Assembly (NCBI GenBank): GCA_019913005.1 | Contig: JAIOHL010000273.1 | Coordinates: 1 to 50,380, forward strand | Direction of reading: 5' to 3' | Length of the DNA stretch: 50,380 nucleotides | From: Anaerolineae bacterium | Lineage (GTDB): Bacteria; Chloroflexota; Anaerolineae; Aggregatilineales; J027 | In this document: positions 2,995 to 48,898 of the stretch, piece by piece | Layout of the letters: every line of letters begins with the position of its first letter | How positions within the stretch are numbered: position 1 is the first letter of the stretch | Program-made: the position numbers and the translations under genes | Notes under the pieces: model-generated | What the model saw: only the letters and a program-made list of their open reading frames with translations | Databases searched by the model: none | Told to the model about the DNA's origin: nothing

Positions 2995-3018
2995 AACAAA
3001 CAGTTGGGCAGGAAGATC

Positions 3019-4032: not shown

Positions 4033-4044
4033 TGTTGTAAGTCC

Positions 4045-4072
4045 CTAACAAGGCGATTAAACACCTTGTTAG
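4045..4072 (+). terminator. Inverted repeat after the LacI gene, possible weak terminator
   Basis: CTAACAAGG and CCTTGTTAG form a perfect 9-bp stem with a 10-nt loop, 13 nt after the LacI stop codon. No T-run follows, so this may be a factor-dependent terminator or an mRNA 3' stabiliser rather than an intrinsic terminator. Confidence 0.4.
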
Positions 4073-4112
4073 ATATGAATGGGGAAAGCGCTCCCCAAAA
4101 AATTTTCACCTA

Positions 4113-4132
4113 TTGTAAAAGCGCTTTTACAA
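4113..4132. promoter_or_regulatory. LacI-family operator upstream of the importer operon
   Basis: TTGTAAAAGCGCTTTTACAA is a perfect 20-bp palindrome, about 85 bp before the binding-protein start. Its right half supplies a possible -35 box TTTACA (4126-4131), the same geometry as at the glycoamylase promoter, although the matching -10 (around 4149-4155) is poor. An alternative promoter is TTTAGA (4150-4155) with TATCCT (4173-4178), 17-nt spacing. A partial AGCGCT core also lies at 4087-4092. Confidence 0.75.
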
Positions 4133-4217
4133 GAAGGAGGCAGGTCGAATTTAGAGCAAACACTACCCAGTTTATCCTAACTGAAGACCGCTAAGAGTTG
4201 AGGAGATAAAAAATACC

Positions 4218-5516
4218 ATGTCACGCTTTTTTGTGCGTTCGTTGATTGTCCTTGTCGTTGTCGCCGCTATTGTTGCCCCGAACTTGGGCATGTCTCGCGC
4301 CCAAGATGAACCCCCAATGGCAGATGAACTCCGTGTATCGGTTGTTGCTGGCGCGATGCAAGACACCATGACCCGCCTTGTCGCTAAATATAATGAAGCC
4401 AACCCCGATGTGAACATCACCCTCGAACTGGAACCCGAAGGCGGTCAGTTCCAAGCGCTGATTGCCGCTGGCAACCAACCCGACCTCATCATCACCTCGT
4501 TTGGCCCTCAATTGGGCACATTGGCAGAACAAGATGCCGCTGTGGTATTGGATGAACTACCCGGCGCGGATGAACTGTTTGCCCGCATCGAACCCGCCTC
4601 TCTGCAAAAACTGTATGGTCATCAATATTATGTCCCCGTGGGCGCGGATGTGACTCTGATGATCTACAACAAAGCCCTATTTGAAGAAGCAGGACTCGAC
4701 CCCAACGCGCCACCTGTCACTTGGGACGAATTCCTTGCCGCTGCCGCCGCGATTGATGCCCTGCCCAACCGTGAAAACGGCGACGAGGTCTATGGCACGG
4801 TGCTGTGGAATGAAGCCCTGCAATGGGGCGGTTGGTATTGGAACATGCTCCAACCCATCTATCTCAATGCTAATCAAGGTGAATGCCAATTATTGAACAA
4901 TCTGGCGACGGACATCGTGTTTGACCGCGAAGAATGTGCGCTGGACAAATTCTTTGGCTTCCTCCGAGAAGCGCAGCAATATGCCCCACCCACAATGGAA
5001 AAGAACTTCTTTGGCCGCGCCATCGGCATGTGGATGCAGTATGGTTATTCGTGGAAACCCAACCTCGAAAACGCGGTGGGTGGTGAAATGGTCATAGGTG
5101 AAGATGTCGGCGTTGCTCCCGTGCCTGTTCCAGAAGAGGGCGATACCAGCTTTACAACTTATGGTGGTCGCTCGATGATGATTCTCAAGACCAACCCCGA
5201 ACGCGAAGCCCGCGCATGGGATTTCTTGAAATTCATTATGGAAGACGAGAACAACTATCAATTCATCACAGAATTGGGCTATCTGCCTGTGTTGACGAGC
5301 CTCAAGGCTGACCCCTATTTCCAAGACCCCAGCCGTCTGCCGTTTGTGCAGGTGCTGGAACACGGGTATGTACCCGAACAATTTGCAACGGCTGAACGAG
5401 TTGCGGTGGCTGTACAAGGGGCATATCAGGAAATTGTGGTTGAAGGCTCGGTTTCACTAGATGAAGCCGTCTCGTATGCGGCGGAAAAAGCACGCGAGGC
5501 CATTGCCACTGAATAA
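4218..5516 (+). CDS. Sugar ABC transporter extracellular substrate-binding protein
   Basis: Protein of 432 residues, a typical family 1 solute-binding protein. It has a signal peptide (about residues 1-28, ending at MSRAQD), then AKYNEANPDVNITLE, the GNQPDLII segment, and the YNKALFEEAGLDPNAPP and TWDEFL signatures. There is no lipobox cysteine, so it is either released or held by an uncleaved signal anchor, which is unusual for a Gram-positive-type envelope. GAGGAG lies 12 nt before the ATG. It is first in the operon with two permeases and GH94, so the ligand is probably the oligosaccharide that GH94 cleaves. No ATPase gene is present; a shared MsmK/UgpC-type ATPase is presumed. Confidence 0.92.
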   Translation: MSRFFVRSLIVLVVVAAIVAPNLGMSRAQDEPPMADELRVSVVAGAMQDTMTRLVAKYNEANPDVNITLELEPEGGQFQALIAAGNQPDLIITSFGPQLGTLAEQDAAVVLDELPGADELFARIEPASLQKLYGHQYYVPVGADVTLMIYNKALFEEAGLDPNAPPVTWDEFLAAAAAIDALPNRENGDEVYGTVLWNEALQWGGWYWNMLQPIYLNANQGECQLLNNLATDIVFDREECALDKFFGFLREAQQYAPPTMEKNFFGRAIGMWMQYGYSWKPNLENAVGGEMVIGEDVGVAPVPVPEEGDTSFTTYGGRSMMILKTNPEREARAWDFLKFIMEDENNYQFITELGYLPVLTSLKADPYFQDPSRLPFVQVLEHGYVPEQFATAERVAVAVQGAYQEIVVEGSVSLDEAVSYAAEKAREAIATE

Positions 5517-5528
5517 TCCAAATCTAAA

Positions 5529-5567
5529 AAGGGCGATAGATAAATAATCGCCCTTGCTGTTTTCGTT
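5529..5567 (+). terminator. Intra-operon hairpin after the binding-protein gene
   Basis: AAGGGCGAT (5529-5537) pairs perfectly with ATCGCCCTT (5547-5555) around a 9-nt A/T-rich loop, followed by GCTGTTTTCGTTT. This is a moderately good terminator between the binding-protein and permease genes. Partial termination here would give more binding protein than permease. Confidence 0.65.
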
Positions 5568-5572
5568 TGTAG

Positions 5573-5593
5573 GGATGGGCCTGTAGCCCATCC
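5573..5593. repeat. Second intergenic hairpin, possible small palindromic repeat element
   Basis: GGATGGGC (5573-5580) and GCCCATCC (5586-5593) form a perfect 8-bp stem with the loop CTGTA. It lies directly after the terminator-like hairpin and 37 bp before the permease. Such short GC-rich palindromes are often dispersed genomic repeats; only one copy was noticed in this window. Confidence 0.45.
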
Positions 5594-5629
5594 TTATCAG
5601 GAAAAGAAGTTGAAGGGAAATTAAACGTT

Positions 5630-6583
5630 ATGAGCGCGATTGCTGCCGAGGGCCAGAATAGTATCGCCAGTGCTTCGACCAAACGACATACCACGCTTTT
5701 ACATCGGATGCGCCGCAATTGGTGGGGTTATGTATTTGTCTCGCCTTGGGTGATTTTGTACATCGTTTTTGGGATTTACCCGCTGATTCTCTCATTCTTT
5801 TTGACCTTTTTTAATTATTCTTTTGTGAACCCCGAAAACCGCCAATTTGTCGGCATCGGCAACTGGGTACGCGGCATTGAAGACCCCCTATTTTGGAAAG
5901 CCATTTTTAACATCGTCCTCAACCAGTCGGTGTTTATTTTCCTTAAAAATGGCTTGGGCCTGCTGATTGCCTCGCTGCTGTTTAATATCAAATTTGGTGG
6001 ACGGTTGCTGCGAACGATCTATTTCTTGCCCGTTATTACCTCGACGGTGGTCTTGATGACGATTGGGGACAATCTTGCCAGTCCGGGCGGGCCAATCCAA
6101 AAATACCTCATTGATCTGCACCTGCTCGATGGGCCATTTTTTTGGAAGTCCGAAGAAACATGGCCCATGATTGTGATCGCGCTCATCAATACATGGAAAT
6201 GGTTTGGCATCAGCACGGTCATTTTGCTGGCGGGCATGTATTCGATTGACGCACGCCTGTATGAAGCGGCAGCGGTTGACGGGGCAAACGGGTGGCAGAT
6301 GTTTACCTATATCACCCTGCCTACCCTCAAACCACAATTGTTTTTCCTATTGGTGGTGGATGTCATCAATGGTCTGCAAATGTTCGGTGAGGTCTTTAGC
6401 ATCGGCTTTAATGTCTATGGCGGGATCAATAACCAAGCCTTGACGCCGGTGCTTTATCTGTATGCCCAAGCCTTTGACCGATCTAATGTGGGATTTGCGT
6501 CCACGTTGGGGCTGCTACTGGCCTATATCATCGCCGCGCTAACTTTCCTGCAATTTAAGTTCTTCCGCACCAATGAGAATTAG
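5630..6583 (+). CDS. Sugar ABC transporter permease, MalF/UgpA type
   Basis: Protein of 317 residues with six membrane segments; the first is WVILYIVFGIYPLILSFFL. The cytoplasmic EAA loop, which contacts the ATPase, reads YEAAAVDGANGWQMFTYI then TLPTLKP. GAAGGGA lies 10 nt before the ATG. It pairs with the MalG-type permease that follows almost immediately, and forms the channel for sugar delivered by the 4218 binding protein. The substrate is inferred only from the neighbouring enzymes. Confidence 0.92.
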   Translation: MSAIAAEGQNSIASASTKRHTTLLHRMRRNWWGYVFVSPWVILYIVFGIYPLILSFFLTFFNYSFVNPENRQFVGIGNWVRGIEDPLFWKAIFNIVLNQSVFIFLKNGLGLLIASLLFNIKFGGRLLRTIYFLPVITSTVVLMTIGDNLASPGGPIQKYLIDLHLLDGPFFWKSEETWPMIVIALINTWKWFGISTVILLAGMYSIDARLYEAAAVDGANGWQMFTYITLPTLKPQLFFLLVVDVINGLQMFGEVFSIGFNVYGGINNQALTPVLYLYAQAFDRSNVGFASTLGLLLAYIIAALTFLQFKFFRTNEN

Positions 6584-6593
6584 GGAGAGCATG

Positions 6594-7427
6594 ATGAGAC
6601 GCGCAAAAGCATTTTCCCCCACCATGATTCTGAGTTATGCCGTTTTGCTACTGGGTGCTTTCTTCGTGATCTACCCGTTCTTCTACATGATTAATAACTC
6701 GGTGAAGACCGGACAAGAGATCATGCACTCCCCGACAGCCCTGCCTGAAAAAATTGTCTTTACGGGCTATACGGGGGTGTTTGATGAACTGGATGTGATG
6801 CTGCTGTTTAAGAACTCAGTGTTTTTGGCGGGGTCAATCACCATCCTGAATACCATTTTTAGCGCGTTGGCGGCCTATGCCTTTGCCAAAATTCCCTTTC
6901 CGGGGCGCGACAGGATTTTCGGTTTTATGCTGCTGACCATGATGATCCCCGGCGTGTTATTCCTTATTCCGACCTATGTGTTGATGTATCGCATTGGCTG
7001 GGTGGGCCACTTTGAGGCGCTAATTGTCCCTTCGATTGTATCGGTGTTTAACATTTTCCTGATTCGCCAATTTATGTCGGGCATCCCGGATGAGTTGGTC
7101 GAGGCGGCGCGGATTGATGGGGCAGGTGAAATGGTCATCTTCACCCGCATCATTTTGCCGCTGGCCCGCCCGGCTTTAGCGACGGTTGCCATTCTCACGT
7201 TTATGGGTAGTTGGAACGACTTCTTTGGGCCGTTGCTCTATCTCAATCGGCCTGAACAATGGACGCTGCAATTGGGCCTGCTGCAATTTCGCGGGACTGT
7301 GCCGGGTGAAAATGCCCAGCAGATTTGGGCACTCACCACGATCATCACCGTGCCGATTGTGGTGGTGTACTTTTTCATCCAAGAGCAGTTTGTCAAAGCC
7401 TTTGCCAACGTGTCGTTGAGTAAATAG
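6594..7427 (+). CDS. Sugar ABC transporter permease, MalG/UgpE type
   Basis: Protein of 277 residues from this start. Family features are MILSYAVLLLGAFFVIYPFF (first membrane segment) and the EAA loop LVEAARIDGAGEMVIFTRI then ILPLARP. ATG codons also occur at 6573 and 6591. ATG 6594 has the best spacing (6 nt) to AGGGAG at 6582-6587, which overlaps the stop codon of the upstream permease, so the two are translationally coupled. It is the second half of the channel heterodimer. Confidence 0.9.
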   Translation: MRRAKAFSPTMILSYAVLLLGAFFVIYPFFYMINNSVKTGQEIMHSPTALPEKIVFTGYTGVFDELDVMLLFKNSVFLAGSITILNTIFSALAAYAFAKIPFPGRDRIFGFMLLTMMIPGVLFLIPTYVLMYRIGWVGHFEALIVPSIVSVFNIFLIRQFMSGIPDELVEAARIDGAGEMVIFTRIILPLARPALATVAILTFMGSWNDFFGPLLYLNRPEQWTLQLGLLQFRGTVPGENAQQIWALTTIITVPIVVVYFFIQEQFVKAFANVSLSK

Positions 7428-7439
7428 GGGGATAAATTA

Positions 7440-8072
7440 ATGGCTCAAACAAGCCTTGCTCAACAACCTCTTGCCGAGGCCATCGTTGAAGTCAAGCCCA
7501 CCCAAAGTTGGATAAAGCGGTATCGCTGGGTGCTGCTGTTTGCTGGCCTGATTGCGGTCTTTATCGGCACATATGGACTGGCGTGGTGGAATGCCTATCG
7601 CCTGACCGAAAATTATTTGGATGATGCCGATGCCAGTTTTGAGGCAGGCAACTATCTGGACGCACTGACAGGCTACGAAAAATATGATACCCAAGAGAAA
7701 AAATATGTTGAATATGGTGGCTATATGCAGGTGCAGCGCATTTGGGAAAACGATTATTCCTATCCTGTGCCCCATGGCGTCCAACGTGCCAAAGACCGTA
7801 TCCATGAGATTGTCTATGAACGCTTGACCATCGAAGACGCCGAACAATTTGTTCAAGAAAATATCGGACGTACCAACCCCTATCTCGGCATGATTTATCT
7901 GCGCTTGGGGGAATTGTATGAAGCCGATGGTCAACTGCGCGATGCCGAAGATATTTATGAATCTATCCCTGACCTGTTTCCCAATGATAAAGCGTTGCAA
8001 GCCCGTGCTGCCGATGACTTGGCAAAATATCGGCGTAATATTCTAAAAAACGAAACTTTTGTAGGAGCGTAA
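7440..8072 (+). CDS. Single-pass membrane protein with TPR-like extracytoplasmic region
   Basis: Protein of 210 residues. Residues about 27-50 (YRWVLLFAGLIAVFIGTYGL) form one membrane helix after a short N-terminal tail. The remainder is charged and helical with TPR-like segments: ADASFEAGNYLDALTGYEKY and LGELYEADGQLRDAEDIYES. The topology is probably Nin-Cout. It is 12 bp after the MalG-type permease and 1 bp before GH94, so it is part of the import operon. Its role is unknown; an accessory or scaffold for the importer is plausible from position only. Confidence 0.8.
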   Translation: MAQTSLAQQPLAEAIVEVKPTQSWIKRYRWVLLFAGLIAVFIGTYGLAWWNAYRLTENYLDDADASFEAGNYLDALTGYEKYDTQEKKYVEYGGYMQVQRIWENDYSYPVPHGVQRAKDRIHEIVYERLTIEDAEQFVQENIGRTNPYLGMIYLRLGELYEADGQLRDAEDIYESIPDLFPNDKALQARAADDLAKYRRNILKNETFVGA

Positions 8073-8073
8073 T

Positions 8074-10440
8074 GTGACCCAACTGCCGAACAAATATGGC
8101 TATTTCAGTGATGACGGCCTTGAATATGTCATTACCTGTGCCGAAACACCCATGCCTTGGGTCAATGTGTTGTCGAACGGCGATTACGGCTTCGTCATCT
8201 CACAGGCGGGTAGCGGGTATAGCTGGCGCACCCATGCCAGCCTGAATCGCATTACCCGCTGGGATCAAGATTTAATCCGCGATGAATGGGGCAAATATTT
8301 GTATATCCGTGATGCGGCCTCCGGTGAATATTGGTCGCCAACCTTTCAGCCCTGTGGCGAAAAGTTGCAGGATTATCGTGTGCGGCATGGCATGGGCTAC
8401 AGCGTTATTGAAGGCCAGCAGGCAGGTATCGCCAGCACCGTCACCTATTTTGTGCCGGAAGATGATCCGTGTGAAATTTGGGTGCTGCGACTGAAAAATG
8501 AAGGCAATACGCCCCGCCAATTGCAACTATTCACCTATTTTGAGTGGTTGTTGGGTAACGCTCCGGATTGGCATCGAGAATTTCACCGCACATTTATCGA
8601 AACCAGCTATCACGAACAGGGTGTGTTGCTGGCGACCAAAGTGATGTGGGAACTGCCCGTCCCATCTAAAACGCATTGGAATCTTTCATGGCCGTATATG
8701 GCCTTCCACAGTGCCTCACTGATGCCAAGTGGTTATGATGCCGACAAGCGCGATTTTCTGGGGCGGCATGGCAGTCCCCATAACCCCGCCGCCGTTCGTA
8801 CAGGTCAATCGAGTCAGCATACAGGCCGGTGGGGGGATGCGATTGGCAGCTTGCGGCATGACCTTACCCTTGCCCCCGGTGAGGAGCGCGAAATTGTCTA
8901 TACGCTTGGGGCGGCGGATAATCCCGAACAGGCTCTCGCTCTGAGCCAAAAATATCGGGATGCAGCGGTTGTCGAAAGCGCCCTAGAGACGGTCAAAAAA
9001 TATTGGCGTGGCATCACCCAAGCCCTGAGCATCGAAACGCCCGACCCAGCCCTAAATGTGTTCGCCAACGGTTGGCTGCAATACCAAGCGATTTCGGGCC
9101 GCATCAAAGCGCGTACCGCCTACTATCAAACAGGTGGGGCGTATGGTTTCCGTGACCAATTGCAGGATAGCCTTGTGTGGCTGCTGTTGGGTCAACCGGA
9201 AAAAACATTGACCCAAATTCATCTGCACGCCGCCCACCAATATCAGGATGGCATTGTGCTGCATTGGTGGCATCCCATCGCCGATACGGGTATGCGCTCC
9301 GATTACAGTGACGACTTGCTCTGGATACCTTTTGTCACCCTCTACTATATGCACGAAACGGGTGATTTTGCCTGCTTGGATGCTGAGATTCCTTATTATG
9401 ATGGTGGGGTAGGTACACTCCGCGAACACTGTATGCGCTCATTTGAAATGGCCCTTAGTCGCCGCAGTCCACGCGGTTTGCCCTATATCCTCAAAGCCGA
9501 TTGGAACGATGGCCTCAACGCGGTAGGGGCAGAAGGAAAAGGCGAAAGCGTCTGGATGGGCCATTTCCTCCATTATCTGCTGCGAGAATGGGCCAATCTT
9601 CCCATTGTAGACGCCGCCACCAAGACCCGCTTTGAAAAAGAGGCCGAGACTGTTTGTGCGGCTGTGAATCAACATGCTTGGGATGGGGCATGGTATTGGC
9701 GGGCCACCACCGATGCCGGGAAATTGGTCGGGTCACATCAATCGCCCGAAGGTCAAATTTTCCTGAATGCCCAAACATGGGCGATCTTGGCGGGGACGGC
9801 GGATGCGGATCGGGCACGTTTGGCAATGGCCTCGACCCGTGATCACCTCTATTCTCCCTATGGCCCGCTGCTGCTTGCTCCGGCCTATTCCATCCCCGAC
9901 CCCCACATTGGCTATTTGTCACGATACGCCCCCGGCACACGCGAAAATGGCGGCGTCTATTGTCATGCGGCGTGTTGGGCGGTGCTGGCCGAACGCAAAC
10001 AAAACGGCATGGTGTCGGCCTATCAGGTGTGGCGCAGCTTTTGTCCCACCGTGCGCGGTGAAGACCCCGATGCGTATTCGGCGGAACCGTATGTCATGCC
10101 GGGGAATGTCGCTGGCCCACTGGCCTCACAACCGGGCCAAGGCGGCTGGTCATGGTACACAGGATCGGCGGCATGGTATTTGCGGGCACTGACGGATGGG
10201 GTGCTAGGGGTGGAAGGTCGCTTAGAAGGTCTGCGCGTCAAGGTGGAATTGCCGCCCACATGGAAGCAATATCGCGTGAAACGGCAGTATCGTGGTGCGG
10301 TCTATGATATCACGATACGGCGGGCACACGATTCGGAAAAAGAAGGCTGTCGGGTAAATGGTTCGAATTGGCAGGGCGAATTTTTGCCGATAGCTAAGTC
10401 CGGCACTACTCAATCCGTCGAAATCATCCTACCCGCTTGA
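8074..10440 (+). CDS. GH94 family glycoside phosphorylase
   Basis: Protein of 788 residues, a size like cellobiose phosphorylase. It has the N-terminal beta-sandwich (TPMPWVNVLSNGDYGFVIS, RDEWGKYLYIRDAASGEYWS) and the (alpha/alpha)6 barrel with YGFRDQLQDSL and the catalytic acid motif ADWNDGLN (Asp479 by alignment to the WND of GH94). The phosphate-site residues also appear present: H631 in ENGGVYCHA and T696-G697 in WYTGS. It should therefore cleave with phosphate, releasing glucose 1-phosphate. There is no signal peptide, so it acts on imported sugar. The N-terminal motifs resemble NdvB-type and beta-1,2-oligoglucan phosphorylases as well as cellobiose phosphorylase, so linkage is not settled. 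The start is GTG, 7 nt after TAGGAG. Confidence 0.9.
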   Translation: MTQLPNKYGYFSDDGLEYVITCAETPMPWVNVLSNGDYGFVISQAGSGYSWRTHASLNRITRWDQDLIRDEWGKYLYIRDAASGEYWSPTFQPCGEKLQDYRVRHGMGYSVIEGQQAGIASTVTYFVPEDDPCEIWVLRLKNEGNTPRQLQLFTYFEWLLGNAPDWHREFHRTFIETSYHEQGVLLATKVMWELPVPSKTHWNLSWPYMAFHSASLMPSGYDADKRDFLGRHGSPHNPAAVRTGQSSQHTGRWGDAIGSLRHDLTLAPGEEREIVYTLGAADNPEQALALSQKYRDAAVVESALETVKKYWRGITQALSIETPDPALNVFANGWLQYQAISGRIKARTAYYQTGGAYGFRDQLQDSLVWLLLGQPEKTLTQIHLHAAHQYQDGIVLHWWHPIADTGMRSDYSDDLLWIPFVTLYYMHETGDFACLDAEIPYYDGGVGTLREHCMRSFEMALSRRSPRGLPYILKADWNDGLNAVGAEGKGESVWMGHFLHYLLREWANLPIVDAATKTRFEKEAETVCAAVNQHAWDGAWYWRATTDAGKLVGSHQSPEGQIFLNAQTWAILAGTADADRARLAMASTRDHLYSPYGPLLLAPAYSIPDPHIGYLSRYAPGTRENGGVYCHAACWAVLAERKQNGMVSAYQVWRSFCPTVRGEDPDAYSAEPYVMPGNVAGPLASQPGQGGWSWYTGSAAWYLRALTDGVLGVEGRLEGLRVKVELPPTWKQYRVKRQYRGAVYDITIRRAHDSEKEGCRVNGSNWQGEFLPIAKSGTTQSVEIILPA

Positions 10441-10525: not shown

Positions 10526-11743
10526 TCACTTGGCGACACGCTCCACCAACGCCATCACGTCTTTGAGGACAGGCTTGTTTTTAAAATAGAGGACTTCGCC
10601 GGGGACATTGGTAAGCTGTTCGGCGGTCAGATTGACCCCTTCGTAGACCAGCAAAATTAAGTCCGAGCGCCCTGCCGTCCGTACTTTGGCAAGTTTACGC
10701 CGCAGATAATCGGGATGCCAGAACCCCATGATTTCGAGCAGCGCTCGCCGTCCATCCTTTTGATGGGTAAAGGCAAAGTCGGGAATCATGACCGTATCCC
10801 CCAACAGCAGCACCTCATCTTCCCGACTCAACTGCCATTGTCCACGTCCCTCCCCAAATTTCTCAATGAACTCCGCCGCAAAATCGGCCTCCATGCGGCT
10901 GTCAAATTCCCCGCTGCGCTTAAAATGCGACGTGAGTGACGAGGTCGAATTGAGTTCGTAATGCAACCAGTCCTCCCCGAATGGAGATTTGACCGTTGCC
11001 CGCATCTGCCAGCGCTCCCCCAACAAAAGGGCAGGCAAAAACGCTGCAAACTGCCGTCCGTAGCGGGTAGTCGTGCTGACAAACGGGGAAATCGGGCCAT
11101 CCAGCGTTACCCAATAGCCGCCTTGATAGGGTTTGGCCTCAAACATCAGCTTAAACAGCTTTAGATAGCGCCAAAAATCTTGGTAGCCATCATAAATCTC
11201 GACCTCCATCAAGCGTGCCCAATAGAGGACACCCCGCGTGAGTTCGAGGTTATAACGGGTAATGAGGCTTTCGGGGGACCATGATGGGCCAACTTCGGCC
11301 AACACGGACTCGTTGGTAAGGTCGGCAAATAGGCTTCGTTCAAGGGTGGTCATATCTGCCCCAAGCTCATCAGCAATATTTTGCAACAGTGTAGCGCGGC
11401 TCTGGGGATGGAATAAATCAGTCTCATCCAAAACTGGCCCACGCCCAAATATCAATTGGCGCAGGTCAGCGGGTGGCAGCGGCGTTGAACGAGTGACCCA
11501 TGTCGCCCCGTCGGAGAGGACTTTTGCCAATCCACGCAGCACCACATAATCCAGCCGTTCGCCTTCTAATTGTTCGACAGCCGATTCCCATTCCCCGAAT
11601 GTGTGACCGGACAGGTTTTGAAAGAGATCAATGAGGGCGGCGGCGGTGCCTTCCCAATGCCGATTTTCCGGCGGCAATAGTTCCACATGCAGGGTGTCGC
11701 CCCGTACACGCAGGCGTGGTCGAATGAGATCAGCGGTGAGCAT
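10526..11743 (-). CDS. bax1: DUF790 family nuclease, Bax1 homologue
   Basis: Protein of 405 residues. It begins MLTADLIRPRLRVRGD, typical of DUF790 (PF05626). In archaea this family is Bax1, the nuclease partner of XPB helicase. The C-terminal half carries a nuclease-like pattern: MIPDFAF, then LLEIMGFWHPDYLRRKL, as in PD-(D/E)XK folds. The longer upstream reading frame would overlap the helicase by about 200 bp; ATG 11743 overlaps the helicase end by only 14 bp and matches the family start. The overlap implies translational coupling and a stoichiometric complex. Likely job: cleaving 3' or bubble DNA in a repair reaction directed by the helicase. Confidence 0.85.
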   Translation of the reverse strand: MLTADLIRPRLRVRGDTLHVELLPPENRHWEGTAAALIDLFQNLSGHTFGEWESAVEQLEGERLDYVVLRGLAKVLSDGATWVTRSTPLPPADLRQLIFGRGPVLDETDLFHPQSRATLLQNIADELGADMTTLERSLFADLTNESVLAEVGPSWSPESLITRYNLELTRGVLYWARLMEVEIYDGYQDFWRYLKLFKLMFEAKPYQGGYWVTLDGPISPFVSTTTRYGRQFAAFLPALLLGERWQMRATVKSPFGEDWLHYELNSTSSLTSHFKRSGEFDSRMEADFAAEFIEKFGEGRGQWQLSREDEVLLLGDTVMIPDFAFTHQKDGRRALLEIMGFWHPDYLRRKLAKVRTAGRSDLILLVYEGVNLTAEQLTNVPGEVLYFKNKPVLKDVMALVERVAK

Positions 11744-13109
11744 GGGCAGTTTTACGTGGTTTGCGGCGCTGGGCCTTGCCTTCTTCAGTGGTTTGGCGGG
11801 CGATAACTTCAAATAGCACGGCTTGGCGATTACCGACCTTGCGCAGTACCCGGCCCAAACGCTGGATATATTCACGAGCGCTGGCGGTTCCACCCAACAC
11901 AATGGCAACTTTGGCTTCCGGCACATCCACCCCCTCATTCAACACCCGCGAGGTCACAATCGCCCGATACTCGCCGAGTTGATAGGCTTCTAAGATATGT
12001 TTGCGTTCAGCGGCGCTGGTCTCGTGGGTAATGACCGGAATCAGATGGCGGCGAGCAATCGCATAGGCCACCGCGTTATTTTCGGTAAATATCAGGGTTT
12101 GTTCATGCGAATATTCGCGCAGCAAGCTGTCCAAAATGGCAAATTTACCTTCCGCCCCTGCCAGTAAACGCAAAATCCGCTGGCGAGCCAATAAAGCGCG
12201 GCGGGCCTCCGCATCAAAGGCACTTAGTCGCATCAATTCCATCAGCCAATTTTTGCCGTGTGCCCGGCGCAAATTGCGGGTACGGAAAAATCCAGAGTAA
12301 ATCGCGTAGTCAGTGTCATAAGCGGTGCGTTCTTGCTCGGTCAGATCAATACGGATACGTTCAGTCCGATATTCCGCCAACTGCTGTCCGGTCAAATCAT
12401 TAATTGGCACTTCGTAGACAATTGGCCCAATAAGCTCATTAATTTGCCAGCGGCCATCGGTTTGTTCATGGGCTTCGGGATAGGTCGCGGTCAGGCCCAA
12501 TCGCAGCGGCGCTGGGGTCATCAAGGCCGTTTCGCCCCAACTTGGCGCAGGGAGGTGATGCACCTCGTCATAGATCACCAATTTAAAGCTATTCCCCTGA
12601 ATAGCAATCAAGTCCCCGGCTGAATGATAGGTGGTGACGGTTAAGGGATGGACGATTTTTTCCGCCCCATAATAGACCCCGACATCCATTTGGAAGGCAT
12701 TGACCATCCGTGCATACCATTGATGCAGCAAATCTAATGTTGGGGCGACGACCAATGCCGAACGTTTGACATTATGGATAGCATGAATCGCTACAAAGGT
12801 TTTGCCCGCACCGGTGGGCAAAACGATGCTGCCCTGCTGCCCTGCTTGTTCCCATGCGGAGAGGGCGGCAAGCTGATATTCGTGGGGTTCGCGTGTGTCG
12901 TGTAAGCGGAGATCGAGAGTCTGCCAGCGTGGAACAGTGTCCCGAATCTCCAGACCTGAGAGCATGGGCCGCAGCCGTGCATAATGATAGGCTTCGCAGC
13001 GCCAATGGCCCTTCACCCATCGGAACGCTTCCGGCATGGCCTCTGATGCCCCGACACCATTGAGAACCAGTGTACCCCCTTGAAAATACAAGCTGCGTTC
13101 ATGCGACAT
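11730..13109 (-). CDS. XPB-type superfamily 2 DNA helicase
   Basis: Protein of 459 residues. After an N-terminal damage-recognition-like segment come REPHEYQLAALSAWE (Q-motif area), Walker A LPTGAGKT, motif II YDEVHHL, motif III GLTAT and, in the second RecA lobe, TSRVLNEGVDVPEA and QRLGRVLRK. The compact size matches archaeal/bacterial XPB rather than eukaryotic XPB. ATG 13109 follows a G-rich site (AAAGGGGTG); an upstream ATG at 13163 has no such site. Together with the overlapping Bax1 gene it should form a helicase-nuclease unit for DNA repair. Confidence 0.88.
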   Translation of the reverse strand: MSHERSLYFQGGTLVLNGVGASEAMPEAFRWVKGHWRCEAYHYARLRPMLSGLEIRDTVPRWQTLDLRLHDTREPHEYQLAALSAWEQAGQQGSIVLPTGAGKTFVAIHAIHNVKRSALVVAPTLDLLHQWYARMVNAFQMDVGVYYGAEKIVHPLTVTTYHSAGDLIAIQGNSFKLVIYDEVHHLPAPSWGETALMTPAPLRLGLTATYPEAHEQTDGRWQINELIGPIVYEVPINDLTGQQLAEYRTERIRIDLTEQERTAYDTDYAIYSGFFRTRNLRRAHGKNWLMELMRLSAFDAEARRALLARQRILRLLAGAEGKFAILDSLLREYSHEQTLIFTENNAVAYAIARRHLIPVITHETSAAERKHILEAYQLGEYRAIVTSRVLNEGVDVPEAKVAIVLGGTASAREYIQRLGRVLRKVGNRQAVLFEVIARQTTEEGKAQRRKPRKTAHAHR

Positions 13110-13214
13110 AGCCCCACCCCTTTCATGGATGGGCCGATTATAGCCGCCCCACCGCCAGATCAAAAATTTAGTCCGAAGCGGAGGCTTAGACTCTCGATGG
13201 TGTGGGTTTATGGG

Positions 13215-13364: not shown

Positions 13365-14663
13365 ATGAATAAATCTTTTAAGTATTTAGGCATCGCAACA
13401 TTAGTTGTGATCATTCTTGTTACGGCCATTGCCCCCTCAATGGCTGCCGATTCAGTCCCTTCCACTAATTCTAATCATGCTCAACTTCCCGCGGTTGACC
13501 TGTTGATGTGGTCAAAAGAATCTGAGACCTATCACACGGATACCGCAATGATAGAGGCATTTGATGCTTGGGCGGCTGAAAATGCTCCCGGTTCAACCCT
13601 GACCATTGAAGCACTGGATGTGGAAGAACTGCGTCAAAATATGCAATCCGCAGCACTAGCGGGCGAAGGTTTGCCAGATTTCCTATGGACAGTTGCTGAC
13701 CATGCTGGACCCTTCACCGAGGCTGGTTTGGTCCAACCTCTTGACGAATTGTTTGATATGGAAGCCTATCTGAACACCGTCGTGCTCGATGGTCAGACAT
13801 GGGGTATCCCCTTCAGCGCAGGCAATCACCTGATGCTGATCTACAACAAGCAATATGTTGAAACTCCACCCGCGACTGTTGAAGAACTGATCGAAATGAG
13901 CGCTCAACTGGTCGCCGACAATGCCGACGTTGAAGGCTTTACCCCCTTCCTGTTCAATCACGGTGAGAGCTTCTGGGTTCTCCCATGGATGCAGGCGATT
14001 AACCCCGATGGCGTTCCCTTTGTTGGTTTCGCAGCCGATGGTGTGACCCCTGACCTCAATAACGATTCCCTTATCAAGACCCTCGAACTCTTGGCGAGTT
14101 TCAAGGAATTGGGTGTGACTTCCAGCGAATGCGATTACAACTGCCTTGATGGTCTGTTCAAAGAAGGCAAAGCTGCCATGACCATCAATGGTGACTGGAG
14201 CCTTGGTGGTGAGACCGGTATGATTGCAACCCTCGGTGAAGAAAATGTTGGTCTGGCCCCATGGCCGATGTTCGAAGGTGGTCAACCCGCCCCACTAGTG
14301 GCTGGTACCTATGCGATGATCCCTGCTGCAACTGAAGGCGACAAGCTGGATGTGGTGGTTGAATTCCTAAAGTGGTACACCACCGACGTTCCCACCGTGC
14401 TTGGCTATACTGTTACCCAAGGCCGTCTGCCCGGTGTATTGGCTGCGTTTGATGACCCCTCGATTGCGGAAGACCGTTTGGTTGGTGAAAGTGCCGCCGC
14501 CCTTTCAACAGGCGTGCCTCAACCCGTCAATGTTGAAATGCGCTGCATTTTCGACGCCATTACACAGGAATATCAGGCCGTGATGAGTGGTAGTGAAACG
14601 CCAACGGATGCTGGTGCCAACGCACAGGCTTTCGCTGAAACCTGCATTGCTGACTTGCAGTAA
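13365..14663 (+). CDS. MalE-like sugar-binding protein of an ABC importer
   Basis: Protein of 432 residues, family 1 solute-binding protein. The signal peptide occupies about residues 1-27 (ending SMAADS) and has no lipobox cysteine. Maltodextrin-binding-protein-like segments are LPDFLWTVADHAGPF, WGIPFSAGNHLMLIYNK, GKAAMTINGDWSL and YAMIPAATEGDKLD. AAAGGA lies 8 nt before the ATG. It is followed by a terminator and then by MalF- and MalG-like permeases, with a convergent alpha-glucosidase beyond. An alpha-glucoside such as maltose or maltodextrin is a reasonable but unproven ligand. Confidence 0.9.
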   Translation: MNKSFKYLGIATLVVIILVTAIAPSMAADSVPSTNSNHAQLPAVDLLMWSKESETYHTDTAMIEAFDAWAAENAPGSTLTIEALDVEELRQNMQSAALAGEGLPDFLWTVADHAGPFTEAGLVQPLDELFDMEAYLNTVVLDGQTWGIPFSAGNHLMLIYNKQYVETPPATVEELIEMSAQLVADNADVEGFTPFLFNHGESFWVLPWMQAINPDGVPFVGFAADGVTPDLNNDSLIKTLELLASFKELGVTSSECDYNCLDGLFKEGKAAMTINGDWSLGGETGMIATLGEENVGLAPWPMFEGGQPAPLVAGTYAMIPAATEGDKLDVVVEFLKWYTTDVPTVLGYTVTQGRLPGVLAAFDDPSIAEDRLVGESAAALSTGVPQPVNVEMRCIFDAITQEYQAVMSGSETPTDAGANAQAFAETCIADLQ

Positions 14664-14698: not shown

Positions 14699-14741
14699 GC
14701 AACGAGCGGGACAGCCTTTTTTGTCCTACTCGTTGTTTTTT
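14699..14741 (+). terminator. Rho-independent terminator between binding-protein and permease genes
   Basis: CAACGAG (14700-14706) pairs with CTCGTTG (14729-14735), and GGACA (14709-14713) with TGTCC (14722-14726) inside, separated by a small internal loop. TTTTTTC follows. It is a strong intrinsic terminator inside the operon. It should reduce permease expression relative to the binding protein, as in the first importer. Confidence 0.8.
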
Positions 14742-14782
14742 CGAGTTTAGAGTTAAGGGAACTATAGAATAGGGAATTTGTG

Positions 14783-17542
14783 ATGCAAGGCTTAACATTT
14801 GACATCGCCGTAGAGCGCTTGCTTGATCTGCTGCCGCTGATAGGTATAACCGTCCTCGGAATTATTATTCTTGAGCCTGCACTCTACTTCTTACTCACTA
14901 AAGTTTTCAAAACGAAGTACGCACTGCCCTTTACATTGGTGGCTCCAGCAGTCATTGCATTGGCGATCTTTACGGTCTATCCTTTCATTTTCAACATTCA
15001 GTTAGCTTTTTCGGATTTGCGCCTCAAGACCATTTCCTGTTATATACCCGACGAGAATATTACCAATGCACCCTGTTCACTGGGGCAGGCGGCGCTCAAC
15101 GCAGATGTCAATATCAATCTGGATGAAATTCCGGTACGGGTCGAACCATCCGAAACAGCGGAGGTCGCTTTTACATTACAGAACGGCGAAGAAGTGCGTG
15201 TGACGGGGCGTTCCAAAGCAGTAGGGTATACGACCATAACGGGTTTTGCGACCACTGAAACGGGTACAGTCTGTAATCCATTGGACGCTGCTTGTGTTCA
15301 ACGTCAACGCGAGACCGAAGCTGCTCTCAAAGTCCAAGATGAGCGTGACTGGTGGGAAATCAAAACGTCCGATGGTGAGGTGGGTTGGATTCCAGACAGC
15401 ACCTTTTTTATGTCGGCAGGTGGAGACCTGTACGAAGAATCAGCGGCGGTTGGTGAGGTCATCGGAAGCGTGGCTTCAGGTGAACAAGTCCGCTTGGTCA
15501 AACGCGAAAGTGAGATGTGGTATCAAATCGAAACCGCTGATAGCACGGTTGGCTGGGTGACAGCGGAACCCCGTCAGGTCAATCTCTATATCCCGGCTGA
15601 GACTTTGACGCTCTATGATGACCAGAGCACTGAAAGTGAGCTTGTTGGCGAAATCAACCCCGCCCAAGAAGTCAATATGCTGCGCAATCAACCCCTCACT
15701 TGGTACGAAGTTGAGACACCCGAAGGCACAGCTTGGGTAAATGCGGAGCTAACTGTTACTGAGCTATATCATCCGTCGGAAGATATTCCACTTTTTAGCG
15801 AAGCCAACTATTTGTCGGAACAGGCCGTCACTCTCCCTGCCGATCAAAATGCGCGTATCGCTAGCCGCCAAACCGAAACGTGGTATGAGGTCAGTGATCT
15901 CGTCGGCCAACGTGGTTGGGTTAATATACAACCGGAGACTGTCGAGGCCTTCGAAATTTTAGAATCGCAGGACATCTTGAGCGCGGCTGAAGGTGAGGAT
16001 GTGGAGGTACTGGGCAGTGTTGAATCTGGTGAATTGGTGGTCAACCTCAGTAGCACAACGGTTGAGGACACCATCTGGTACTACATTCAGACCGATCAGA
16101 ATGTCAAAGGATGGATACAAGCGACCCCCGAAGCATTTACGGATATTGTGATCGTCCCAGACACCACCACCCTGATTGCCGATTTGGAGAGCAATCTGGT
16201 CGTTGCCACGCTACCCGGCGGTACACAGGTTGAAGAATTCGACACGGGTGAATTGACTTGGTATGAACTGCGCCTAGAAGATGGCACCTCTGGTTTCACC
16301 AATATCGAGCCAGAGAGTGTTATCGAACGTTATGCGGCCCCTACCGAAATCAACGCCTATGCCGCCTTTAACGATACTAGTGAAATCGTAACGGTCTTTG
16401 CCGAAGATACTGACCTGAATGTACTCGGTACCCAAGACGCCCCTTGGTATCAAGTCCAAACCCGTGACGAGGCTCGCTTGCTTGGATGGGTCAACGCTGA
16501 ACCCGCCGATGTGCGTTCAATTTTTACGAATTCTGAAGATGGCCCACTGCACACCGAACCCTCCCGTCTCTCTGAAACATTGGGTGAAGTCGGCAATGGT
16601 GTTACCGTTACCCCACAAGATGAAGAACAGCGCTATTGGCATCAAATCCGTACTGAAGCTGGCCTTGTAGGTTGGGTCGAAGCAGTGCCGGAACAGCGTG
16701 TGACCACTGACCGTGAAATTGTCCTCTACAGCTTGGAATATGGCTGGAACAATCTTAAACGGGTGTTTGTAGATGAAGACCCCGAAACAGGCGAAATTTT
16801 GGGCTGGGGGCGGTTGCTGCAAACCGAAAATTCAACCTTCCCACGCTTGATGCGAACCACGCTAATTTGGACATCCTTTAATGTCCTGTTCCATTTGTTT
16901 TTCGGCATGATTTTGGCGCTGATCCTCAATCAAAAAGACCTGAAATTTACAGGTATCTATCGTGCCATTATCATTCTGCCTTGGGCTATCCCACAGGTAA
17001 TTATCGCGCTGGCGTGGCGTGGGGAGTTCAACTTCCAGTTCGGTTTTGTCAACGCCCTTGTACAAGAACTCGGTTTTGAACCTGTCCAGTGGCTCTTTAG
17101 ACCTACCCCGGCACTGGTCGCGGTAACTTTTGTCAATATCTGGTTGGGCGTCCCCTTCTATTTGGTGACGCTGTTGGGTGGGCTGCAATCCATTGCGCCA
17201 GATTATTATGAAGCGGCCTCAATGGATGGGGCGAATGCTTTTGAACGTTTTAAGCATATCACGGTTCCACTCATCCGTCCGGTAGCGGTGCCCATCGTTA
17301 CGTTGGACGTGATATGGACTTTCAATAACTTCAATGTCATCTTTTTGATTACAGGGGGTGAACCAAACGAAAGCACCAATATTTTGGTGACGGCACTCTA
17401 CAACGCAGCGTTCGGCGCAAATGGGCAATTCCAACTCGGTTTTGCGGCGGCCTTCTCACTGGTGATTTTTGTCGTCCTCATATTGTTTGCTTCGGTCTGG
17501 ATCACTCAAAGCGGCGCATTGAAAGGAATCTATGAAAAATGA
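14783..17542 (+). CDS. MalF-type sugar permease with an eight-unit SH3b-like array in an extracellular loop
   Basis: Protein of 919 residues, about three times a normal permease. Two N-terminal membrane segments (about residues 13-38 and 52-78) are followed by roughly 570 extracytoplasmic residues, then the normal remainder of MalF with LPWAIPQVIIALAWRGEFN and the EAA loop YYEAASMDGANAFERFKHI. The insert sits where E. coli MalF has its P2 loop, which touches the maltose-binding protein. It contains eight SH3b-like units of about 62 residues, each with an aromatic W(W/Y/H) anchor (codons near 15350, 15518, 15701, 15881, 16076, 16259, 16445 and 16637) and most ending GWVxAEP. ATG 14783 is 6 nt after AGGGAA; a GTG at 14780 is the alternative. 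Confidence 0.9.
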   Translation: MQGLTFDIAVERLLDLLPLIGITVLGIIILEPALYFLLTKVFKTKYALPFTLVAPAVIALAIFTVYPFIFNIQLAFSDLRLKTISCYIPDENITNAPCSLGQAALNADVNINLDEIPVRVEPSETAEVAFTLQNGEEVRVTGRSKAVGYTTITGFATTETGTVCNPLDAACVQRQRETEAALKVQDERDWWEIKTSDGEVGWIPDSTFFMSAGGDLYEESAAVGEVIGSVASGEQVRLVKRESEMWYQIETADSTVGWVTAEPRQVNLYIPAETLTLYDDQSTESELVGEINPAQEVNMLRNQPLTWYEVETPEGTAWVNAELTVTELYHPSEDIPLFSEANYLSEQAVTLPADQNARIASRQTETWYEVSDLVGQRGWVNIQPETVEAFEILESQDILSAAEGEDVEVLGSVESGELVVNLSSTTVEDTIWYYIQTDQNVKGWIQATPEAFTDIVIVPDTTTLIADLESNLVVATLPGGTQVEEFDTGELTWYELRLEDGTSGFTNIEPESVIERYAAPTEINAYAAFNDTSEIVTVFAEDTDLNVLGTQDAPWYQVQTRDEARLLGWVNAEPADVRSIFTNSEDGPLHTEPSRLSETLGEVGNGVTVTPQDEEQRYWHQIRTEAGLVGWVEAVPEQRVTTDREIVLYSLEYGWNNLKRVFVDEDPETGEILGWGRLLQTENSTFPRLMRTTLIWTSFNVLFHLFFGMILALILNQKDLKFTGIYRAIIILPWAIPQVIIALAWRGEFNFQFGFVNALVQELGFEPVQWLFRPTPALVAVTFVNIWLGVPFYLVTLLGGLQSIAPDYYEAASMDGANAFERFKHITVPLIRPVAVPIVTLDVIWTFNNFNVIFLITGGEPNESTNILVTALYNAAFGANGQFQLGFAAAFSLVIFVVLILFASVWITQSGALKGIYEK
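15300..16700 (+). repeat. Eight tandem SH3b-coding repeats inside the permease gene
   Basis: Aromatic anchor codons recur every 168-195 bp, eight times. The protein-level unit runs: hydrophobic strand, a GE/GT turn, W(W/Y/H)xx and G(W/F)(V/I/T)xxxP. DNA identity between copies is low, so this is an old array and not a recent expansion or assembly artefact. Confidence 0.8.
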
Positions 17543-18540
17543 CCACCATATCGCAAGATTGGAAAAAACGCTTTTGGGAAACCCGCGAATTCGAAACACC
17601 CTCGATCCTGTGGTATCGGCGCGGGCGTGGAATTGGCAGCATCGTTGTCCTTATCTTGGGACTCGTGTTGGCGCTCATCAACAGTAATCTGTTTATAGCG
17701 GGTGGCGCTGTTTGGTTAGCGATTGCAGTGGCCTACCCAACGCATGGTTTCCTGATTTTCTACTGCATTCTCACGCTGTACCCCCTTTCACGTGTGGTGA
17801 CGATTTCACTGCGCCCTGCCCAAAATCTCCTTTCGACCTCGCTGGCGATCATTCCTGATGGCGCAAATTTAAATTCCTACCAAAACCTATTCGAAGATCA
17901 AGATTTTGGCTTGTGGGTGTGGAACAGCCTTATCATTACGGTTTCGGTGGCGCTGCTCGGTGTGGTAGTTGCTGCGACTAGTGCCTATGCCTTCTCGCGC
18001 TGGAAGTTCCCCGGACGTAATTTGGGCCTGTTCCTGCTGCTTTCCACGCAGATGATTCCCGCCGGGATGCTGTTGATTCCGATTTACATCATTGTCGCCC
18101 GCTTGAATCTGACGAACAATGTGTTGGGTTTGGCACTGGCCTATACCACCACCGCCATTCCATTATCCATCTGGATTTTGCGTGGCTACTATGACACGAT
18201 CCCTTTTGACCTCGAGGAAGCCGCGATGGTGGATGGTGCAACCCGTATGATGGCTTTCTGGCGGGTGATTCTGCCACTGTCTACCCCTGCGCTCGCCATT
18301 ATCTTTTTGTTCAACTTCCTCAGCGCATGGAATGAATACATGGTCGCCAATGTCATCCTCAAAGCGGAGGTTATGCAGACATGGCCGCTTGGGTTGAACT
18401 CGCTTATCCTTCAGTTTCAAACACAATGGGGGACGTTTGCGGCGGGTTCTGTACTCATCACCATTCCAGTGTTGATCTTGTTCCTCTATAGCTCCCGCTG
18501 GCTGGTTGGTGGCCTGACACTCGGCTCAGTAAAGGGCTAA
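17539..18540 (+). CDS. MalG-type sugar ABC transporter permease
   Basis: Protein of 333 residues, about 50 longer than usual because of an N-terminal extension with two additional hydrophobic stretches (SIVVLILGLVLALINSNLF and AVWLAIAVAYPTHGF) before the standard six-helix core. The EAA loop is LEEAAMVDGATRMMAFWRV then ILPLSTP. ATG overlaps the upstream stop codon (ATGA), so it is coupled to the SH3b permease. Extra helices in both permeases suggest they evolved as a pair. No ATPase gene is nearby. Confidence 0.9.
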   Translation: MTTISQDWKKRFWETREFETPSILWYRRGRGIGSIVVLILGLVLALINSNLFIAGGAVWLAIAVAYPTHGFLIFYCILTLYPLSRVVTISLRPAQNLLSTSLAIIPDGANLNSYQNLFEDQDFGLWVWNSLIITVSVALLGVVVAATSAYAFSRWKFPGRNLGLFLLLSTQMIPAGMLLIPIYIIVARLNLTNNVLGLALAYTTTAIPLSIWILRGYYDTIPFDLEEAAMVDGATRMMAFWRVILPLSTPALAIIFLFNFLSAWNEYMVANVILKAEVMQTWPLGLNSLILQFQTQWGTFAAGSVLITIPVLILFLYSSRWLVGGLTLGSVKG

Positions 18541-18606: not shown

Positions 18607-20286
18607 CTATTCTTGGATGCCGATATAGACCTCATAGGGATGAAGTTTGAACGCAGCCAAATGATCGGATTCACTGCTGCGTGCGTGAGTCGAGAAAATT
18701 GGGCGCACGGCCTGATTTTCAAGTTGCAGCGTGGTTGGTTGATTGGACATATTGAGGGCAACAAAGCAACTTTGCTGTGGGGTTTTGCGCCAGAACGATA
18801 ATACATCCTCGGTATCCAGCATCACGAGTTCCCCTTGACGCAGCGCTTCATAGGCTTGTCGCACTTGAATGAGACGGCGTAGATAATTCAGCGCCGAATC
18901 AGGATTTTCGCGCTGTTCTTCCACATTGATACCCTTTGTATAATTGGGATTGACGGGTAGCCATGTGGTGATATCGGCAGGCGAAAAACCAGCGTTAGGT
19001 GCGTTTCGCCACTGCATGGGAGTACGGCATTTGTCGCGCCCCATAATATTTGCAAAGGCCAGTGCTTTTTCGGACGAAAGCTGGCGTTTGAGCTGCAACA
19101 CTCCATAAATCCATACACCAAGATTGTCCTTAAACCATTCGATCTCCTGCATCAGATAATCGGCCATACCGATTTCTTCGCCATAATAAAATACGGGTGT
19201 CCCGCGTAGCAGTGTCACCATTGCCAGCGCAACCTGATGCCGACTGCGATCATCTCCATAAAAGGTGAATGAGCGCGTTATGTCATGATTGCCCACCGTG
19301 TTGCATTCCCATGCTCCATTCGGCAACAACTTGGCTCGGTCTGCCAATTTTTGCCGAATCTGGCTGGCCTGTAAATTTTCGTGCTTTTGGAAGCGCAGGA
19401 TGTCAAAATTAAACACCGAATGGAGTTCATTTGTGCCATTTCCATAGTAGCGTGGATCGTCGGTTTCACCCAGCAAAATGCGGTCATCATAGGTGTCAAT
19501 CAATTCACGCAGGGCTTTCATCAAGCCATGATTTTCCGGTAGATCATCTTGATAGCGAATTTTGGCGCGGAATTGCTTGGTTGTGTCTTCCGATACTCCC
19601 ATCGTCCAATTGAGGAACAATTCTTCGAGGCCTACATCTACATTGGCATCGGGTAGGTCGGGGTCTTCATAAATCGCGCCAATTGCGTCCAAGCGGAAGC
19701 CATCCACACCGCGATCCAGCCAGAAACGCACCTCATCAAACATGCTCTGTTTGACAGAGGGATTGCGCCAATTGAGATCGGGTTGCTCTTTGAAAAAATA
19801 GTGATAGTAGTATTGATCTAGCGTTTCATCATATTCCCACGCCGAACCGCCAAAAATAGACTCCCAGTCGTTGGGTGGCCCGCCATTTTTACCGTTCCGC
19901 CATACGTACCAGTCATGATAGGGGTTGTCTTTACTCAAACGCGACTGTTGAAACCATTCATGCTGATCGGAGGTGTGATTGAGAACCAAGTCGAGCAGCA
20001 CACGAATGCCTCTTTTATGTGCTTCTACGATCAGGCGATCAAAATCGGCCAGTGTGCCATAATCCGGGTCTATGTCATGATAATTCGAGATGTCATAACC
20101 AACATCGAATTGAGGGGAGGGGTAGAAGGGGGAGATCCAAATTACCGTGACTCCCAGCCATTGAAGATAGTCCAGTTTTTCAATAATACCAAGCAAATCG
20201 CCGATGCCATCACCATTCCCGTCTGCAAAAGAACGGGGGTAAACCTGATAGCACACAGCGTTTGTCCACCATTTGGGGGTTGTCAT
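18607..20286 (-). CDS. GH13 alpha-glucosidase (oligo-1,6-glucosidase/alpha-glucosidase group)
   Basis: Protein of 559 residues without a signal peptide, so cytoplasmic. The N-terminus WWTNAVCYQVYPRSFADGNG is characteristic of the alpha-glucosidase subfamilies of GH13. The four conserved regions are DLVLNHTS, GFRLDAIG (nucleophile Asp200), LLGETDD (acid/base Glu274) and VGNHDITRS (Asp335). Region II has Ala after the nucleophile, so alpha-1,4 versus alpha-1,6 preference cannot be read off. It probably hydrolyses the sugar brought in by the neighbouring convergent importer. AAAGG precedes the ATG by about 6 nt. Confidence 0.93.
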   Translation of the reverse strand: MTTPKWWTNAVCYQVYPRSFADGNGDGIGDLLGIIEKLDYLQWLGVTVIWISPFYPSPQFDVGYDISNYHDIDPDYGTLADFDRLIVEAHKRGIRVLLDLVLNHTSDQHEWFQQSRLSKDNPYHDWYVWRNGKNGGPPNDWESIFGGSAWEYDETLDQYYYHYFFKEQPDLNWRNPSVKQSMFDEVRFWLDRGVDGFRLDAIGAIYEDPDLPDANVDVGLEELFLNWTMGVSEDTTKQFRAKIRYQDDLPENHGLMKALRELIDTYDDRILLGETDDPRYYGNGTNELHSVFNFDILRFQKHENLQASQIRQKLADRAKLLPNGAWECNTVGNHDITRSFTFYGDDRSRHQVALAMVTLLRGTPVFYYGEEIGMADYLMQEIEWFKDNLGVWIYGVLQLKRQLSSEKALAFANIMGRDKCRTPMQWRNAPNAGFSPADITTWLPVNPNYTKGINVEEQRENPDSALNYLRRLIQVRQAYEALRQGELVMLDTEDVLSFWRKTPQQSCFVALNMSNQPTTLQLENQAVRPIFSTHARSSESDHLAAFKLHPYEVYIGIQE

Positions 20287-48882: not shown

Positions 48883-48898
48883 ATGGACTCCAACTACT

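Follow-up and report, generated by a model that had tools for sequence, protein, structure and literature searches.

What does an array of eight SH3b domains do in the outside loop of a sugar importer? The question is raised by a contig of an uncultured Anaerolineae bacterium (Chloroflexota, order Aggregatilineales; assembly GCA_019913005.1, contig JAIOHL010000273.1), which we analyzed over a stretch of 50,380 nucleotides, hereafter the window. An earlier note, made from the letters alone, had described a MalF-type permease gene at 14783-17542 with eight SH3b units in the position of P2, the loop of Escherichia coli MalF (residues 91-271) that contacts the binding protein MalE (PMC3150292). 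We found that the protein is an intact, conserved permease of the CUT1/MalF type with eight SH3b domains in an outside loop. What these domains do is a more tentative matter, for which we propose an accessory platform at the P2 position.

The gene is a single open frame on the forward strand, encoding 920 residues from a GTG at 14780 and 919 from the ATG at 14783, the start common to the copies of the same genus. The product matched Pfam BPD_transp_1 (PF00528) over residues 707-906 (E 6e-15, 55.9 bits against a cut-off of 26.4) and SH3_3 (PF08239; E 2.1e-38, 130.7 bits against a cut-off of 27), with six stretches each passing the latter on their own. Eight W[YWH]x[VIL] cores were counted in the array, which follows the second of the predicted membrane helices, precedes the permease core and measures 542 residues, not the roughly 570 given in the earlier note. 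The parts of the protein are:

14783..17542, forward strand: MalF-type (CUT1) permease with SH3b array, 919 residues
14783..15031, forward strand: permease N-terminal part, two predicted membrane helices (residues 6-41 and 47-75)
15038..15076, forward strand: Cys86-Cys98 hairpin directly before the array, invariant in 7 of 7 array proteins
15095..16720, forward strand: SH3b array, eight repeats, 542 residues (105-646), net charge -74
15098..15412, forward strand: SH3b repeat 1, 105 residues, longer than the other repeats
15413..15580, forward strand: SH3b repeat 2
15581..15757, forward strand: SH3b repeat 3
15758..15946, forward strand: SH3b repeat 4
15947..16138, forward strand: SH3b repeat 5
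16139..16321, forward strand: SH3b repeat 6
16322..16510, forward strand: SH3b repeat 7
16511..16702, forward strand: SH3b repeat 8
16853..17539, forward strand: permease core (BPD_transp_1) with the EAA-type loop YYEAASMDGA

Within the EAA-type loop, D815, G816 and A817 were invariant across 30 aligned sequences; the EAA motif, which serves the ATPase, has been described (PMC3150292, PMC3654945). The solved structures nearest by sequence (phmmer) were chains of enteric MalF (8.1e-33 to 9.7e-33, query residues 655-904), and the sequence after the array aligned with MalF (2r6g_F) from its residue 260. Together with the Pfam matches and the eight cores, this alignment bears out the architecture first described, down to the number of units and their P2-equivalent position. 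The model of the E. coli-type MalF equivalog (NF008232, NCBIfam) scored 146.2 bits, below its cut-off of 392, aligning only its positions 261-510, from residue 650 of the protein. No P2 sequence was found in the loop between transmembrane segments 3 and 4, which matched SH3_3 and in which the MalF model gave no alignment. The earlier note had spoken of an array replacing P2. Array-less relatives of families f2 and f8 share both flanks, that is, the two cysteines at the hairpin position and then directly LDHLYGxDY...NF...VFF, with the array sitting between the two in the window protein. Because these aligned relatives have only a short loop, we take the array to be an insertion at the P2 position, and no P2 domain was replaced.

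A sequencing or assembly fusion of two genes, which had been named beforehand as the test of the observation, was rejected. The full-length protein was present at 96-97% identity in G001, G003 and G004 (101 genomes searched), hence in four of the five genomes of the genus, including that of the window (G000), while the fifth (G002) had only a distant paralogue at the same threshold. Orthologous frames of 821-826 residues with six repeats were found in three genomes of another family of the same order (G044, G052 and G069, family f4), and the ratio of nonsynonymous to synonymous substitutions (dN/dS) was low. The observation stands on these conserved copies, which also mean that the design is not unique to this genome. 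Across the order, 26 of 154 genomes had a match at E <= 1e-70, comprising seven array proteins, 18 frames too short for an array (372-425 residues, 533 in G051) and one fragment ending at the contig end (G030). The array-less orthologues were 58-64% identical to the window protein in the core (53% in G051). With the N-terminus plus array as query, 4 of 396 genomes of the class matched, all of the same genus; this draw says little about f4 carriers, because G044, the source of the query, was absent from it.

Maximum-likelihood trees were built for MalF, for MalG and for the binding protein. In each of them the six array rows grouped together (branch support 99/97, 100/99 and 100/100, respectively) and adjoined eight array-less f2/f8 rows, the trees being midpoint-rooted only. 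A single row of family f3 joined the array-less clade in the binding-protein tree with weak support (85/73) and fell outside both clades in the MalF tree. From these topologies, the array was probably gained once in the MalF lineage.

The repeats have not evolved alike. Between the eight-repeat array and the six-repeat ones, clear one-to-one orthology was seen for repeat 1 alone (47-50% identity); the six-repeat arrays have 436-442 residues and net charges of -55 to -60. Repeats 2-8 could not be paired with the six-repeat units (about 16-41% for any pairing; for locus L117, the automatic cut skipped one boundary and left five pieces, one of them holding two repeats). Among the four copies of the genus, dN/dS was 0.028 for the first 105 residues, 0.086 for repeat 1, 0.090 for repeats 2-8 and 0.009 for the linker plus core; the values for the repeats indicate that the array is under purifying selection. 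Genome-wide, we counted 99 SH3_3 matches at E <= 0.001, three of them in the window permease; the window proteins at 31811-32593 and 47590-48918 are also among the 99.

Only one other permease match of the genome shares its open frame with an SH3_3 match. This protein (C21:94890-96017, 376 residues) has a core 27% identical to that of the window permease and one SH3b in the same loop, scoring 24.8 bits, just below the 27-bit cut-off. Relatives of this second kind, here called type B, were found in 65 of the 396 class genomes. In an alignment of type-B permeases (A3), 26 of 27 had SH3_3 by Pfam, the remaining one having a short loop, and the 26 came from ten families (f1, f2, f4, f5, f22, f27, f42, f45, f52 and f55); compared with the 30 type-B loci, L212, L217 and L220 were omitted because their N-terminus was unusable or over-long, and L190 stands for its copy L199. 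By loop length, the C21 operon and 40 other type-B operons fell into 20 with no SH3b (at most 16 residues), six with one (102-103) and 15 with two (183-192). These numbers rest on loop length, plus A3 and Pfam for the aligned members, because the core regular expression under-counts (0-2 where cores are visible). At -2 to -13 per 100 residues, the SH3b regions of type B were not as acidic as the array.

When 46 type-B cores, five of them from outside the class, were placed in a tree, a 100/100 branch separated 21 SH3b-bearing from 25 SH3b-less rows, with the one-SH3b group (98/96) and the two-SH3b group (83/88) inside the former. The SH3b labels on this tree need two changes, the least possible. 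With a root on the SH3b-less side, SH3b would have entered type B a single time. None of the eight type-B relatives read from outside the class, found by a phylum search with the C-terminal 272 residues (core only), had an SH3b in the loop. Separate origins of the loop SH3b in the two permease families would be the simplest reading of these sequence comparisons.

The genes around the window permease bear on its function. They include:

13365..14663, forward strand: substrate-binding protein (SBP_bac_8/SBP_bac_1), N-terminal signal-like stretch without lipobox, net charge -47
17539..18540, forward strand: MalG-type permease partner, its start overlapping the permease stop (ATGA)
18607..20286, reverse strand: GH13 (alpha-amylase family) enzyme, convergent, adjoining the transporter

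Binding protein, permease and MalG-type partner together make the gene set of a CUT1 importer. None of the 18 neighboring window proteins scanned with Pfam was an ABC ATPase of its own; this does not exclude CUT1 membership, because CUT1 systems that share one ATPase are known (PMC7658222). The imported sugar may be maltodextrin, as suggested by the permease family and the neighboring GH13 genes. In two of the six-repeat genomes, a GH13 plus CBM20 frame of 1,241-1,266 residues lies downstream of malG (L145:2509-6231, reverse strand; L146:4311-8108, forward strand), while in the third the contig ends there; these frames point to putative starch-derived substrates. Sequence scans gave 3 promoter sites, fewer than in shuffles (5.1), and 9 terminator-like sites, slightly more than in shuffles (5.8), one of the latter at 14708-14727 between the binding-protein and permease genes, and neither was used as evidence.

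The binding protein of the window operon lacks a lipobox, and the earlier note had offered its docking as one reason for the array. The lipobox was absent in all six array genomes with a readable binding-protein N-terminus (that of G044 is cut) and also in all nine array-less f2/f8 operons of the order; G051 (f3) has one. In type B, the lipobox cysteine was present in 18 of 18 readable operons without SH3b (of 20; 17 by regular expression and L265 by eye), in none of six with one SH3b and in 10 of 12 readable ones with two (of 15), the two exceptions belonging to the order of the window. Sorted by order, it was absent in 8 of 8 readable type-B operons inside that order and present in 28 of 28 outside it (one by eye). 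A correlation between array and lipobox loss was rejected accordingly, the trait tracking the order and not SH3b. Also rejected was the idea that SH3b stands in for a missing lipoprotein pathway, since 386 of the 396 class genomes, this one among them, encode Lgt. In the window, the binding proteins at 13365 and 4218 are both lipobox-less, like the others read in the order (G051 excepted), despite the encoded Lgt. Some two-SH3b type-B operons have tandem-fused binding proteins, with two start motifs (L239, L247, L248 and L249) or three (L241) in one lipobox-bearing frame.

We favor, tentatively and at somewhat less than even confidence, an array that acts as an accessory platform at the P2 position, with docking and gating through the membrane-proximal SH3b and an acidic, fast-changing outer stalk. 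The P2-position loop of this CUT1 importer subunit would have been built out with SH3b domains, and the membrane-proximal one (repeat 1, or the single SH3b of type B) would sit on the transmembrane rim, where E. coli MalF has P2, and may steer or stabilize docking of the binding protein and gating. Repeats 2-8 would make up an acidic stalk that evolves fast and, instead of holding on to peptidoglycan, serves to space or crowd the docking site; with both ends fixed at the membrane, this stalk would have to fold out and back. The placement on the rim, near the docking site of the binding protein, is favored because of the helix and strand layout and the confidence of the type-B model, in which a first helix up to residue 35 is followed by strands from residue 36 on, and residues 41-120 have the highest block means of the predicted local distance difference test (pLDDT, 83-89). 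This model superposed on MalF (4ki0_F) over 301 residues (Z 18.5, root mean square deviation [rmsd] 5.1). The platform also draws on the alignment with MalF at the P2 position, on the recurrence of SH3b at this loop in type B, and on repeat 1, which stands alone both in its one-to-one conservation and in keeping an arginine motif at the expected place. It is possible, though we hold it a little more loosely, that Chloroflexota importers have repeatedly recruited SH3b as a home-made P2 substitute. It would be a modular extracytoplasmic platform for gating and docking on type I ABC importers, gained once in the MalF lineage, with six to eight units, and once in type B, with one or two units in at least ten families of the class.

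The evidence for docking is mixed. The stem of the array clade was longer in the binding-protein tree (0.80) than in those of MalF (0.45) and MalG (0.20), and identity between array and array-less groups was 38% for the binding protein against 60% for the MalF core and 58% for MalG, while within groups the three proteins were alike (71 and 69, 77 and 78, and 66 and 70%); such a pattern would agree with co-adaptation. Recent replacement of the binding protein from a sampled outgroup was not supported, the array binding proteins forming one clade inside a larger group to which those of f2, f8 and f3 also belong (100/99). Several results weigh against the platform. The stem of the array-less sister was also long in the binding-protein tree (0.67, against 0.33 for MalF and 0.35 for MalG), and that of the type-B SH3b clade was not (0.30; SH3b-bearing permease 0.34, partner permease 0.55), so that we do not use the acceleration of the binding protein as proof of docking. 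The array (-74) is strongly acidic and so is the binding protein (-47), for which reason a simple charge attraction between them is not expected; the binding proteins of array-less relatives in the order ranged from -29 to -43. The type-B model is itself of moderate quality (mean pLDDT 67.5, predicted template modeling score [pTM] 0.54), and the full-length model of the window protein is weak (mean pLDDT 61.0, pTM 0.42) and does not set the shape or orientation of the array.

SH3b domains often bind the cell wall, and this background, with the 99 SH3_3 matches of the genome, speaks for a wall tether, in which the array would anchor the importer by binding peptidoglycan or some other polymer of the wall. 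There is a partial precedent in the Bacillus subtilis ABC exporter TagGH, one domain of which is reported to be somewhat homologous to SH3b domains that bind wall polymers (PMC11466899), and a peptidoglycan-like layer has been reported in the Chloroflexota member Litorilinea aerophila (PMC13319060). Motif and charge speak against a tether. An arginine motif ([VLIFA]R..[PAGSNT]) near the domain start was found in 62 of 67 other SH3b domains of the genome and in one of the eight array repeats (repeat 1, at the expected place), the comparison set being not random (27 of the 30 top-scoring loci, three being dropped where a contig end had displaced the match, and 40 lower-scoring ones hand-picked from the 99) and the search covering the first 14 residues of these domains and, in the array repeats with the borders that we set ourselves, the first 26. 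Top-scoring domains are favored by a profile that contains the motif; among the 40 lower-scoring ones, 35 had it. The regular expression is loose enough to match elsewhere in the array by chance, and it missed L288 and L305, where the arginine is visible by eye. Net charge per 100 residues was -9 to -20 in the array repeats against a mean of -1.5 in the other domains, 10 of 67 of which were at -9 or below. The lack of the motif in repeats 2-8 and the strong acidity of the array weaken the case for wall binding and would leave no reason to assume it. In addition, the single SH3b of type B, joined directly to a membrane helix, would be poorly placed to reach the wall. We regard a wall tether as rather unlikely. 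Still more doubtful is a device that holds a binding protein devoid of a lipid anchor. The lipobox-less binding proteins of the window operon and of all six one-SH3b type-B operons agree with it, but as a necessary link it is already largely refuted, since the nine array-less f2/f8 operons are equally lipobox-less, the ten readable two-SH3b type-B operons outside the order all have a lipobox, loss of the lipobox tracks the order, and Lgt is encoded.

A role on the glycan side, in which the array captures polysaccharide or docks a secreted amylase and channels maltodextrins to the importer, would suit the GH13 gene beside the operon and the large GH13 plus CBM20 frames downstream of malG in two of three six-repeat genomes. 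Pfam matched no carbohydrate-binding family in the array, though, and repeats 2-8 are poorly conserved; we hold this role to be quite unlikely. The SH3b units, abundant in this genome, might also have simply landed in a permissive loop, where they are tolerated and do little beyond folding. Repeat number does vary (eight or six, and one or two in type B), the distal repeats differ to about the same degree whether they are compared across families or inside the array, and enlargement, in one case with a PDZ-like domain, is also seen in other permeases of the genome. Such accretion is harder to reconcile with a dN/dS of 0.09 over the array, with the retention of SH3b in 21 of 21 sampled descendants after the type-B branch and with the use of the same loop twice, and we see it as unlikely, although it deserves more weight than the wall, glycan or holding roles.

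Among the enlarged permeases, the 664-residue frame at locus L003 (G000:C340) has a PDZ-like domain in its N-terminal part (PDZ_6, E 3.2e-8, residues 109-149). Two further frames have a large extra region that received no convincing Pfam name, a MalG-like permease of 495 residues (L191:2060-3544, reverse strand) and a permease of 790 residues (L195:1939-4308, forward strand). Elsewhere in the window, a second sugar ABC operon occupies 3004-10440, preceded by a LacI-type regulator and followed by a GH94-family gene (PF17167, E 2.2e-105), and two overlapping reverse-strand frames (10526-11938 and 11730-13163) encode a DUF790 protein (E 4e-97) and a helicase whose C-terminal part gave an XPB/RAD25-like match (E 1.1e-11).

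The permease family is known; the architecture with SH3b in the loop appears to be a new form of it. The earlier note knew of no importer of this design, and this holds for the open-access literature searched, in whose listings and abstract openings we found no description of an importer permease combined with SH3b. MalF of E. coli and Salmonella (2r6g, 4ki0, 3fh6), also among the best Foldseek matches of the window protein, has an additional domain on the extracytoplasmic side, in the corresponding loop and before the corresponding core helix, but this is a P2 domain of about 180 residues and not 542 residues of SH3b repeats, and three N-terminal helices precede the loop instead of the two predicted here. 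The CUT1 importers SugABC/LpqY (7cad, 8ja7) share the permease fold and gave the best VIA hit for the type-B model (270 residues aligned, Z 21.2, rmsd 3.3), but their target chains of only 277-285 residues have no room for such an insert. TagGH, being an ABC transporter whose SH3b-like domain is extracellular, is the nearest precedent; it is an exporter, however, and the domain is C-terminal, follows a flexible linker of about 30 residues and belongs to the ATPase subunit, not to the loop of an importer permease (PMC11466899). The MalF1/MalF2 and MalG1/MalG2 proteins of Thermotogales show that large hydrophilic insertions occur outside enteric bacteria, but their MalF has the enteric-type layout of eight helices plus a large loop, and SH3b is not mentioned in the portion of that account consulted (PMC2246101).

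The best-studied extra domain of an importer permease is the P2 loop of enteric MalF. In these Chloroflexota importers, SH3b sits at that loop in two permease families, both of which have relatives without it. They offer a natural experiment for asking how a P2-position domain affects docking of the binding protein and coupling to the ATPase, and the type-B series, with zero, one or two SH3b, is small enough for reconstitution.

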